Origin: Lysobacterales bacterium
GTDB taxonomy: Bacteria > Pseudomonadota > Gammaproteobacteria > Xanthomonadales > Marinicellaceae
Direction of reading: 5' to 3'
NCBI GenBank assembly: GCA_027067055.1
Contig: JAMOMK010000026.1
Location: forward strand, 1 to 64,000
Length of the DNA: 64,000 nt
Made by a program: the position numbers and the translations under genes. The number at the start of each line of letters is the position of its first letter. Position 1 is the first letter of the stretch. This document shows positions 123 through 3,103 of the stretch, piece after piece. The notes under the pieces are model-generated. The model saw only the letters and a list, made by a program, of their open reading frames with translations. It made no database searches and had not been told where the DNA came from.

Positions 123-255
123 AAAAGAGCAACTTGTTAATGGAAATTGCTAAAATTTGATAAACGTGAAGTAATCCCTCCATGAAATTGTGACCAAAAT
201 TGACATACTGGCTCTTAACACTTGTTGCATTTTTTTAATTAAAAAGGAGAAACAA

Positions 256-351
256 ATGAAACAAAATAAAATCTTAAATGCGCTCGGCTTTAGCCAGCAC
301 AACACAACACAACACAACACAACACAACACAACACAACACAACACAAATAG
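256..351 (+). CDS. Out-of-frame 31-codon reading from the best start of the phase-variable gene
   Basis: The ATG at 256 has a near-ideal Shine-Dalgarno site (AGGAG at 245-249, six bases away). Its frame runs through the CACAA repeats and stops at TAG 349-351, giving a 31-residue peptide. The long downstream frame is offset by one base. One more CACAA unit (11), or two fewer (8), would join this start to the long frame; nine units would again give an early stop. I read this as the OFF state of a contingency gene rather than as a real small protein. Confidence 0.6.
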   Translation: MKQNKILNALGFSQHNTTQHNTTQHNTTQHK

Positions 352-955
352 ACAATTTCTAAAACGACTAGTTCAGTCATGCCTATTTTTAACCCTAATG
401 ATTAGTACATCAAGCGTTATAGCACAATGCGAAGAGCAGCAGCAGGGTGTTGGGGTTGGGACAACGGACTCAGAATCTATTTTAGAAGGTTCCGTACAAG
501 AAGGTACAGAATCACTTTGGTCAGAGCAAGAAAACGGTGGCACTCTATTAAATTGTGATGAGATAATAGTAATAGGCAGACGCGGTCCTGGCTTTGGCGG
601 CGGCTTCGGTGGCGGTGGCGGCGGCGGTGGAAGTGGCGGTGGTGAAGGTGGCGGCGGTGGTGGTGGTTCTCCCCCTCCTCCAAGCCCTTTTGACCCAGAT
701 CCAAATCTTAATTGTAGTTCAAGTGCTGGCAATAGAGAAGCTGAAGCAATGAGAATATACAGAGCAAGGAGGCAAGTTATTTTTAATACATATTCAACTG
801 ACATCCTAAGAATTGCAGCATTAGGAGGAATATTGACTAACGGTTTGTCAATTGAATGGAGTTCAGGAGAAGAGGGGACTTTCCTTATAGAAGATAATTG
901 GATCAATGGTGGTGGATTGAATTCCATTACCGTCAGTGAAGTTACTTGTGATTAA
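278..955 (+). CDS. Phase-variable exported glycine-rich protein, unknown function
   Basis: This is the long open frame downstream of the CACAA repeat. In the window's configuration it can only start at ATG 278, which has no visible ribosome binding site, or further in. After the repeat-encoded NTTQH pentads comes a clear signal peptide: a basic stretch (RQFLKR), a hydrophobic core, and a likely cut after SSVIA, before QCEEQ. The mature part has the segment DEIIVIGRR, then an almost pure glycine stretch, a PPPPSP hinge and a mixed C-terminal domain of about 80 residues with cysteines near its start and at its end. I do not recognise a family. A gene starts ten bases after the stop, so the two are probably one operon. 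With one extra repeat unit, translation from 256 would run straight into this frame and export the protein. Confidence 0.7.
   Translation: MRSALASTTQHNTTQHNTTQHNTNRQFLKRLVQSCLFLTLMISTSSVIAQCEEQQQGVGVGTTDSESILEGSVQEGTESLWSEQENGGTLLNCDEIIVIGRRGPGFGGGFGGGGGGGGSGGGEGGGGGGGSPPPPSPFDPDPNLNCSSSAGNREAEAMRIYRARRQVIFNTYSTDILRIAALGGILTNGLSIEWSSGEEGTFLIEDNWINGGGLNSITVSEVTCD
298..347 (+). repeat. Ten perfect CACAA pentanucleotide repeats
   Basis: Positions 298-347 are exactly ten tandem CACAA units. They lie between the well-placed start codon at 256 and the signal-peptide codons of the long frame. Five is not a multiple of three, so slippage by one unit changes the frame. Pentanucleotide repeats in the signal-peptide region switch the neisserial opa genes in the same way. 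Confidence 0.95.
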
Positions 956-965
956 GGGTATTTAA

Positions 966-1862
966 ATGAAAAATAAAATTATCAAAATTATCAAAATTAT
1001 TTTTGGTATTTTGATATTGGCTGGTATCACTTCTTTCTTTTATTTAAGAAGTGGTACTAATAATATCAATATAACGGTTGAAGATTTAAAAAACACCCTA
1101 CAACCCGCTTCAAAAATTAATAATCCTACAAGTAATAAGCACGATAAATTAGCAAAGTATAAAGTTGCAAAACAGGATACATTTGTTAATTCACCAAATT
1201 ATGTGGCTGAACAGTATAATAAAATCTGTAGCAAAAGAGATGGTGAATTCATAGAAACTCCTAGAGTCGCTAGTCAATTTAAGCAAAAAAAACGAAATGA
1301 TATACAAATGAATGCGTATTATGCAGTAAATGAAAAGTGCAATGAGTGGAATGAATATTGGGACACATTGAGTGATAAAGAAAAGGAAGATTATAAAAAA
1401 AATATAAAAGAAAGCAGAGAAATGGAGTTGTTTTTTCAGAAAGCAGCTCATAATCATGATAGGTCAGCTCTTGAATTAGCTAGGTCAATTATATCTACAG
1501 GAGGAGATAGCTCGTTATTTTCTACTAATGTCTTAACCTATTTACTAAAAGTTGATATTGAGTTTAAAAGAGAAATTGCTAAAAGAATGAATGTAATTAA
1601 TCCAAACTTATATGCTCTAGGAATTACAAAAAAAACATCAGATATTGTAGGGTTATATGGATGTGCAGTTGACCCAGAACTGGGTTGCAATAGTGATTCA
1701 ATAGGTATTCTTTCACTATGTTCTGATTTTGGATTGATGTGTGGTAAATCATTTAACCAATATATTTTAGAAAGTACTACAGCAAATGAATATGATGATT
1801 TGCAGCAAATAGTAAATATAATTATTAGGCTGATAAAAGAAGATTTTTTTGATAGTAAATAA
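966..1862 (+). CDS. Membrane-anchored protein with C-terminal cysteine pattern, unknown function
   Basis: 298 residues. A basic N-terminus is followed by one hydrophobic segment (residues 10-26), which is either a membrane anchor or an uncleaved signal, so the rest should lie in the periplasm. The middle is charged and lysine-rich. The C-terminal third holds five cysteines in the pattern GC-x6-GC-x9-LC-x6-MC over about 30 residues, plus two cysteines earlier, which suggests disulfides. The start has AAGGG seven bases upstream. It sits ten bases after the glycine-rich gene, is probably cotranscribed with it, and may depend on its phase. I cannot assign a family. Confidence 0.75.
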   Translation: MKNKIIKIIKIIFGILILAGITSFFYLRSGTNNINITVEDLKNTLQPASKINNPTSNKHDKLAKYKVAKQDTFVNSPNYVAEQYNKICSKRDGEFIETPRVASQFKQKKRNDIQMNAYYAVNEKCNEWNEYWDTLSDKEKEDYKKNIKESREMELFFQKAAHNHDRSALELARSIISTGGDSSLFSTNVLTYLLKVDIEFKREIAKRMNVINPNLYALGITKKTSDIVGLYGCAVDPELGCNSDSIGILSLCSDFGLMCGKSFNQYILESTTANEYDDLQQIVNIIIRLIKEDFFDSK

Positions 1863-2040: not shown

Positions 2041-3083
2041 AAACAGGGGTCAAGTGACTTGTTCATGAATTAAAAATATTATACAATATCCCTATGCCAA
2101 GACCGCAAAGAATAGAGTATGAAAATGCCCTCTATCACGTTATGAATCGTGGCAGAGGTCAGCGAATGATTTTCCTTGATGAAAAGTATTACCATGCTTT
2201 TCTAGAAACATTGAATGAAGTACATACACGTTTTGGTTGTGTAATTCATGCTTATTGTTTAATGGGGAATCATTATCATCTTTTATTGGAAACTCCCAAT
2301 GCAAATTTATCAAGGATTATGCGTCATATTAATGGTGTTTATACTCAACGGTATAATCGATTAAAAAAAACAGATGGTCCGTTATTTCGAGGGAGGTATA
2401 AAGCAATACTGGTTGATAAAGATGAGTATATTATGCAATTAACTCGTTATATACATCGCAATCCAATTGATATGAAAAAGCCACTAGTATCGGATTTGGT
2501 CGATTATAATTGGTCAAGTTATCGTGCCTATATTAATCAATCAAAAACACCTAACTGGCTTTATCGAAAATTTACATATGAATTATTGGCTCATAAGAAT
2601 AAATATAGAGCTTATAAACAATTTGTAAACAATGAGACTGATGATGAGATTCAGAAAATATATGGTAAGAGAAATTTACCCAACATAATTGGGGCAAAGC
2701 CTTTTAAAACATGGGTCTATAATAAATTATTATCGGGCACAGCACCTGAAGAAAAAACAAGACTAATCAAACAACATATATCAATGGAAGCAATAGTTGA
2801 ATTGATTTCAACCTATTATCAATTGGATAATGAGATAATTACACAAAGGGCAGCTGGCAGAAAGTCAGAACTAGAGCCAAGAAAAGTTGCAATGTACTTT
2901 TGCCAAGAATTAAGCGGTAAATACCTAAAAGATATTGCACATTATTTTAATCTTAAACATATTGGCTCTGTAAGTTATCATACAAGCATGATTAGACAAA
3001 AGAGAAGAGGTGATAAAAAGTTTGGCAATAAAATAGATAAACTGGCAGAATTGATTCATGAACAAGTCACTTGACCCCTGTTT
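2041..3083 (+). mobile_element. Y1-transposase unit with perfect 30-bp inverted ends
   Basis: The 30 bases at 2041-2070 are the exact reverse complement of 3054-3083. Each arm contains the near-palindrome CAAGTGACTTG next to AGGGGT. Between them lies only one Y1 (HUH) transposase gene. The right arm overlaps the end of the gene, so the last codons and the TGA are part of the repeat. Immediately outside, a 16-bp sequence, TGACCCCTGTTTCCCC, occurs twice in tandem (3072-3087, 3088-3103). This fits a REP-associated transposase with its own REP-like hairpins. No target duplication is obvious. Confidence 0.8.
2094..3074 (+). CDS. REP-associated Y1 (HUH) tyrosine transposase with DnaA-like C-terminal domain
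   Basis: 326 residues. The N-terminal 150 residues match the Y1/IS200-like transposase fold: MPRPQRIEYENALYHVMNRG at the start, the metal-binding HUH motif in GNHYHLLLE (about residue 60), LFRGRYKA, and the nucleophile tyrosine in TRYIHRNP. The C-terminal 70 residues (RKSELEPRKVAMYFC, then KDIAHYFNLKHIGSVSYH) resemble the DnaA domain IV helix-turn-helix, which is known in one branch of these transposases. The enzyme should nick and rejoin single-stranded DNA at its flanking palindromes. No good ribosome binding site is visible before ATG 2094. The frame is intact, so it may be active. Confidence 0.88.
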   Translation: MPRPQRIEYENALYHVMNRGRGQRMIFLDEKYYHAFLETLNEVHTRFGCVIHAYCLMGNHYHLLLETPNANLSRIMRHINGVYTQRYNRLKKTDGPLFRGRYKAILVDKDEYIMQLTRYIHRNPIDMKKPLVSDLVDYNWSSYRAYINQSKTPNWLYRKFTYELLAHKNKYRAYKQFVNNETDDEIQKIYGKRNLPNIIGAKPFKTWVYNKLLSGTAPEEKTRLIKQHISMEAIVELISTYYQLDNEIITQRAAGRKSELEPRKVAMYFCQELSGKYLKDIAHYFNLKHIGSVSYHTSMIRQKRRGDKKFGNKIDKLAELIHEQVT

Positions 3084-3103
3084 CCCCTGACCCCTGTTTC
3101 CCC
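3072..3103 (+). repeat. Two tandem 16-bp repeats at the transposase-unit edge
   Basis: TGACCCCTGTTTCCCC occurs at 3072-3087 and again, identically, at 3088-3103. The first copy covers the outer part of the right inverted repeat and the stop codon of the transposase. The second may be scar or a partial end left by an earlier event. Confidence 0.85.

Follow-up and report, generated by a model that had tools for sequence, protein, structure and literature searches.

Microsatellite switches within signal-peptide codons have been described mostly in host-adapted pathogens. In the Neisseria opa genes, a pentanucleotide array (CTCTT) occupies part of the signal-peptide codons and turns the gene ON in one of three copy-number classes, with several loci present per genome and a reported under-representation of in-frame copies (PMC13183285). 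Helicobacter pylori oipA (PMC10564699) provides a second example in which a slipped-strand switch acts on the 5' region of an exported protein, here through dinucleotide CT repeats in the 5' coding region of an outer-membrane protein. Neisseria MafB/MafI polymorphic toxin-immunity systems (PMC4287609) combine a signal peptide and a shared N-terminal part with a variable C-terminal part, and have an adjacent partner that changes with the effector as well as cassette exchange between conserved flanks. The locus analyzed here, which a partner gene follows, lies within a window of 64,000 nucleotides of a Lysobacterales bacterium (contig C26 from base 1; 145 contigs totalling 3.42 Mb make up the genome). 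It shares the opa logic (i.e., array position, an ON state predicted for one in three copy-number classes, multiple loci in each genome and in-frame copies below chance) without membership, as both the unit and the protein differ: the unit is CACAA and itself differs between loci, and the gene 1 product, from different bacteria, has no Pfam match to opa or porins and no predicted beta barrel. Similarly, the predicted slipped-strand switch resembles that of oipA, which differs in repeat type, outer-membrane product and bacterium, while the features shared with MafB/MafI are found here in small proteins with no recognised toxin domain and an array in the leader.

Near the start of the window (Table 1), the initial annotation had described ten CACAA repeats behind a well-spaced Shine-Dalgarno sequence and ATG 256, a stop at 349, and a signal-peptide and Gly-rich frame that is one base off. 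Each of these features was recovered, with all ten units perfect and the long frame at phase +1 relative to ATG 256, whose own frame currently reads MKQNKILNALGFSQHNTTQHNTTQHNTTQHK. When the unit number was varied in silico from 3 to 15, arrays of 5, 8, 11 and 14 units produced 224-239 open codons, whereas all other counts (including 9 and 10) led to a stop after 21-43 codons, in agreement with the earlier arithmetic that 8, 11 or 14 units would join the frames and 9 or 10 would not; with 10 units, as in the window, the stop falls at codon 31. The length of the array is far beyond chance, as the longest period-5 run in the window measures 50 nt compared to a maximum of 16 nt across 60 dinucleotide-Markov shuffles, and a repeat scan found no 4-7-mer arrays of more than 3 units elsewhere in the 64 kb. 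Ten CACAA units in 5' coding sequence also exceed the cut-off of 5 units used for pentanucleotides in a phasome survey (PMC5953494). The region preceding the array (198-281) shares 77% DNA identity with a leader query based on paralogues.

Overall, the locus, one member of a multi-copy family of the genus that has relatives in further families of the order, is very probably a simple-sequence contingency locus. The ten CACAA units, placed among the codons for the n-region of a predicted Sec signal peptide, would hold the reading frame, and units would be gained or lost through slipped-strand mispairing, the presumed mechanism. One copy-number class in three would join the Shine-Dalgarno sequence and ATG to the signal peptide, so that the protein is made and exported (ON), while the remaining two classes would stop early (OFF), the window representing an OFF state. 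Gaining or losing one copy would turn the exported protein on or off, and we infer that such switching would occur within a population.

Table 1 Features of the array locus and its downstream genes in the window.
Feature	Position	Strand	Basis or remarks
5' leader	198-255	+	DNA conserved among same-genus paralogues, GTTGCATTT ... AAAGGAGAAA
Shine-Dalgarno AGGAG	245-249	+	Six bases 5' of ATG 256
Shine-Dalgarno-led frame, present OFF state, 31 codons	256-351	+	Stop TAG 349-351
Gene 1 open frame, 225 aa from ATG 278	278-955	+	Phase +1 relative to ATG 256
Putative hypermutable array (CACAA)x10, 100% perfect	298-347	+	Repeat search; ON predicted at 5, 8, 11, 14 units
Gene 1 predicted signal peptide after array, NRQFLKRLVQSCLFLTLMISTSSVIA, likely cleavage before QC	347-424	+	Read from sequence; aligns with paralogues KRLVQS...MAQC
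DEIIVIG motif and Gly/Pro-rich linker	563-700	+	Sequence, comparison with paralogues
C-terminal alpha-beta domain	668-952	+	Model pLDDT mostly 70-95; no PDB match
Gene 2, N-terminal membrane anchor and helical Cys-containing domain (LYxC...C...C)	966-1862	+	Conserved partner of gene 1
Fic gene without about its first 125 residues	3106-3795	+	Intact homologues downstream of related array loci

Relatives were represented by one assembly per species, many of which are MAGs, with the named relatives labelled Lysobacterales, Gammaproteobacteria or uncultured Alcanivoracaceae. Searching them with gene 1 recovered several matches that coincide with or adjoin pentanucleotide arrays. Within the genus, a common layout is seen at 15 loci, namely a Shine-Dalgarno-led ATG, an array of 3-20 units (long arrays, e.g., the 20-unit one, may be mis-assembled) and a signal-peptide core. 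The units at this homologous position include CACAA (x10, window), AGCAC/GCACA (x3 to x20), AGAAC (x10), ACAAC (x5), ACAGC (x4), the tetranucleotide AAGC (x11) and one compound array (GCACA x6 followed by GTACA x6). Because the units differ at a homologous position, it is the array and not its sequence that is kept. At least five different units at the same site are natural evidence of selection for an unstable array rather than for a particular sequence, and the recurrence of this design at many loci of related bacteria, with other repeat letters, points to a maintained switch rather than an accident. At least three loci are found in the window's own genome, where AGCAC x7 (C123) is OFF, like the window array, and AGAAC x10 (C74) is ON. 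Across the genus, two loci are ON, seven are at phase +1 and six at phase +2, leaving 13 of 15 out of frame; the deficit of ON loci compared to the expected 5 (one third; binomial P about 0.08) resembles that reported for opa (PMC13183285). The same switch logic would operate at many loci, in an unrelated gene family of uncultured bacteria known from MAGs. In the sister genus g3, the relatives that were read (L086 and L088) carry an ordinary signal peptide that lacks an array.

The gene 1 product appears to be exported, with an architecture of signal peptide, [DE]xxVxVxG-like motif, Gly-rich linker and C-terminal domain. Its AlphaFold model has low overall confidence and consists of helices and a small alpha-beta domain with no barrel; for the C-terminal domain, two helices and three strands are predicted with fair confidence. 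Neither the gene 1 model nor that of gene 2 matched folds in the PDB, and no useful family was identified for either gene in Pfam, NCBIfam or PADLOC. Sub-threshold profile matches (HMG box, Specificity_I and similar) were rejected as chance, and a literature search for repeat-encoded peptides gave no match. An EEVIVxG motif located 3' of the signal peptide (window 563-585 and relatives) resembles a TonB box. The gene 2 family is present in four families of the order, and its product, whose helical domain has conserved cysteines, is membrane-anchored and probably faces the periplasm. In the cassettes read, gene 2 overlaps or closely trails gene 1, so that gene 2 may likewise be lowered by an OFF array through lost translational coupling.

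A second locus group presents, in order, the same leader, other exported proteins, other membrane-anchored proteins and a Fic gene. Two of the genus loci, G004:C197 and G009:C64, are ~95% identical at the leader end and at the Fic end, while the effector mature part and partner between these conserved ends have no similarity. Flanking Fic genes are 90-94% identical across loci carrying unrelated effectors, and the same leader and signal precede several unrelated C-terminal parts. Among the few loci available, related effectors pair with related partners, and the two loci whose effectors differ have different partners as well, but the partners at G000:C123 match a family with an effector that shows no clear relationship. 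At the sequence level, this arrangement is the signature of effector/partner cassettes that are exchangeable between conserved flanks. A copy of the leader with a short ACAGC array was also found before a subtilase (PF00082), out of frame, in G003:C160 (L053, 1-1055, minus strand), which is possibly a phase-variable protease; not all cargo need therefore be toxins.

That partners change with effectors between nearly identical Fic genes suggests that gene 1 and gene 2 could form a polymorphic effector/immunity system subject to phase variation. Together, the partner gene and the interchangeable C-terminal parts indicate a phase-variable system spread over several loci that may serve competition, and such a set of exported proteins with cognate partners serving competition is a tentative reading that we place somewhat below an even chance. 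More doubtful is the specific proposal that uncultured Lysobacterales-related bacteria possess a novel class of polymorphic effector/immunity modules with antibacterial activity, made of small Sec-exported, Gly-rich, bacteriocin-like proteins, possibly bearing a TonB box (E-E-V-I-V-x-G) and each switched by its own signal-peptide microsatellite; no toxin domain was found in Pfam, NCBIfam or PDB folds. If true, random switching would split a clone into producing and non-producing cells that differ in their effector sets. A different role, which is compatible with the switch, is that of a surface antigen or adhesin whose switching would allow escape from phage, predators or hosts. The outer-membrane adhesins opa and oipA are among the known signal-peptide phase-variable genes and the subtilase carries the same leader, which makes this role quite possible, if short of probable, given that the model predicts no barrel, that no Pfam adhesin domain is present, and that, in the cassettes read, gene 1 adjoins a membrane-anchored partner gene, which varies along with the effector.

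With respect to the switch itself, the array could instead be a neutral microsatellite in a dispensable n-region that has no regulatory role, with translation of the protein beginning, in the present state, at ATG 278 or another internal start. ATG 278 lies 5' of the array in the signal-peptide frame, so weak expression from it is possible and may provide some gene 1 product in the window locus only; an in-frame ATG or TTG is also present in G010:C157 and G000:C123. However, no Shine-Dalgarno sequence is visible for ATG 278, whereas that of ATG 256 is strong and conserved family-wide, and 10 of the 13 OFF loci have no ATG, GTG or TTG upstream of the core in the signal frame. Furthermore, a change in unit number would also shift ATG 278 out of frame, and the presence of different units at one site argues for selection on the array, making neutrality improbable compared to a contingency switch.

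Evidence for the contingency switch also comes from a direct comparison of orthologues. G009:C64 and G004:C197 are orthologous over 543 nt (95.8% DNA identity) with a nearly identical leader and 3' flank, and their arrays differ by exactly one AGCAC unit (7 units, ON, and 6 units, OFF, respectively). Unit number in related genomes, a check named in the initial annotation, does vary, and a constant number was not seen. Simple dN/dS estimates (Nei-Gojobori) for the downstream frames were 0.165 for this ON/OFF pair and, for two pairs in which both copies are OFF and dS is high, 0.166 (G009:C87 and G010:C53) and 0.10 (G003:C82 and G000:C123). The downstream frames are under purifying selection, even between OFF copies, so they serve though unread now, as a reversible switch predicts. 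These values count against OFF copies being decaying pseudogenes frameshifted by random array growth, an explanation that the 13 out-of-frame loci would otherwise favor, but one that is also at odds with downstream frames remaining open for >100 to ~300 codons and with an ON/OFF pair whose sole frame difference is one array unit; we regard it as highly improbable. Programmed ribosomal or transcriptional slippage that bridges the frame on the repeat, with protein made in every state, is the least credible explanation. Repeated tracts can promote slippage and many loci are out of frame, but neither the CACAA nor the AGCAC arrays contain a homopolymer or a slippery heptamer, and two loci need no shift at all, being in frame. 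In addition, the OFF loci fall into both phases (7 at +1, 6 at +2), which a single fixed shift could not accommodate.

A frame switch governed by repeat number is, by comparison between loci, well supported. The original proposal of an opa-like contingency switch acting on a non-opa exported protein gains support from the 15 array loci, the ON/OFF orthologue pair and the conserved unread frames, and can be extended to a multi-locus family that reaches beyond this family of the order and includes a partner gene and interchangeable C-terminal parts. Of 299 genomes of the order, 10 contain long CANCA-type arrays. In G048 (another family) and G160 (a third family), the array directly follows the ATG, is out of frame with the signal peptide, and is succeeded by a gene 2 of the same kind, while G132 carries an 11-unit array after an ATG at a contig end. 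Array matches in G211 and G295 were set aside because their layout differs. In G048:C262 (L187, 2394-5749), the gene 1-gene 2 cassette is tandemly duplicated with an array in the first copy only.

Contigs C54 (L051 end) and C197 (L052) of G004 share an exact 99-nt overlap that ends inside the array. This may reflect assembly-graph branching caused by unit-number polymorphism or by paralogous leaders, and the overlap was rejected as proof of length polymorphism since identical paralogous leaders can also break a contig. Near another array locus (L011, 2762-2986), a short reading frame encodes a tandem nonapeptide repeat (SVVGDGSNV).

Downstream of gene 2 in the window, a Y1 (IS200-like) transposase (2094-3074) that carries a DnaA-type HTH domain at its C-terminus lies between gene 2 and Fic, and its insertion may have truncated the Fic gene. 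The repeat search also identified two exact tandem copies of a 16-bp unit (TGACCCCTGTTTCCCC) at 3072-3103, where the transposase gene ends.
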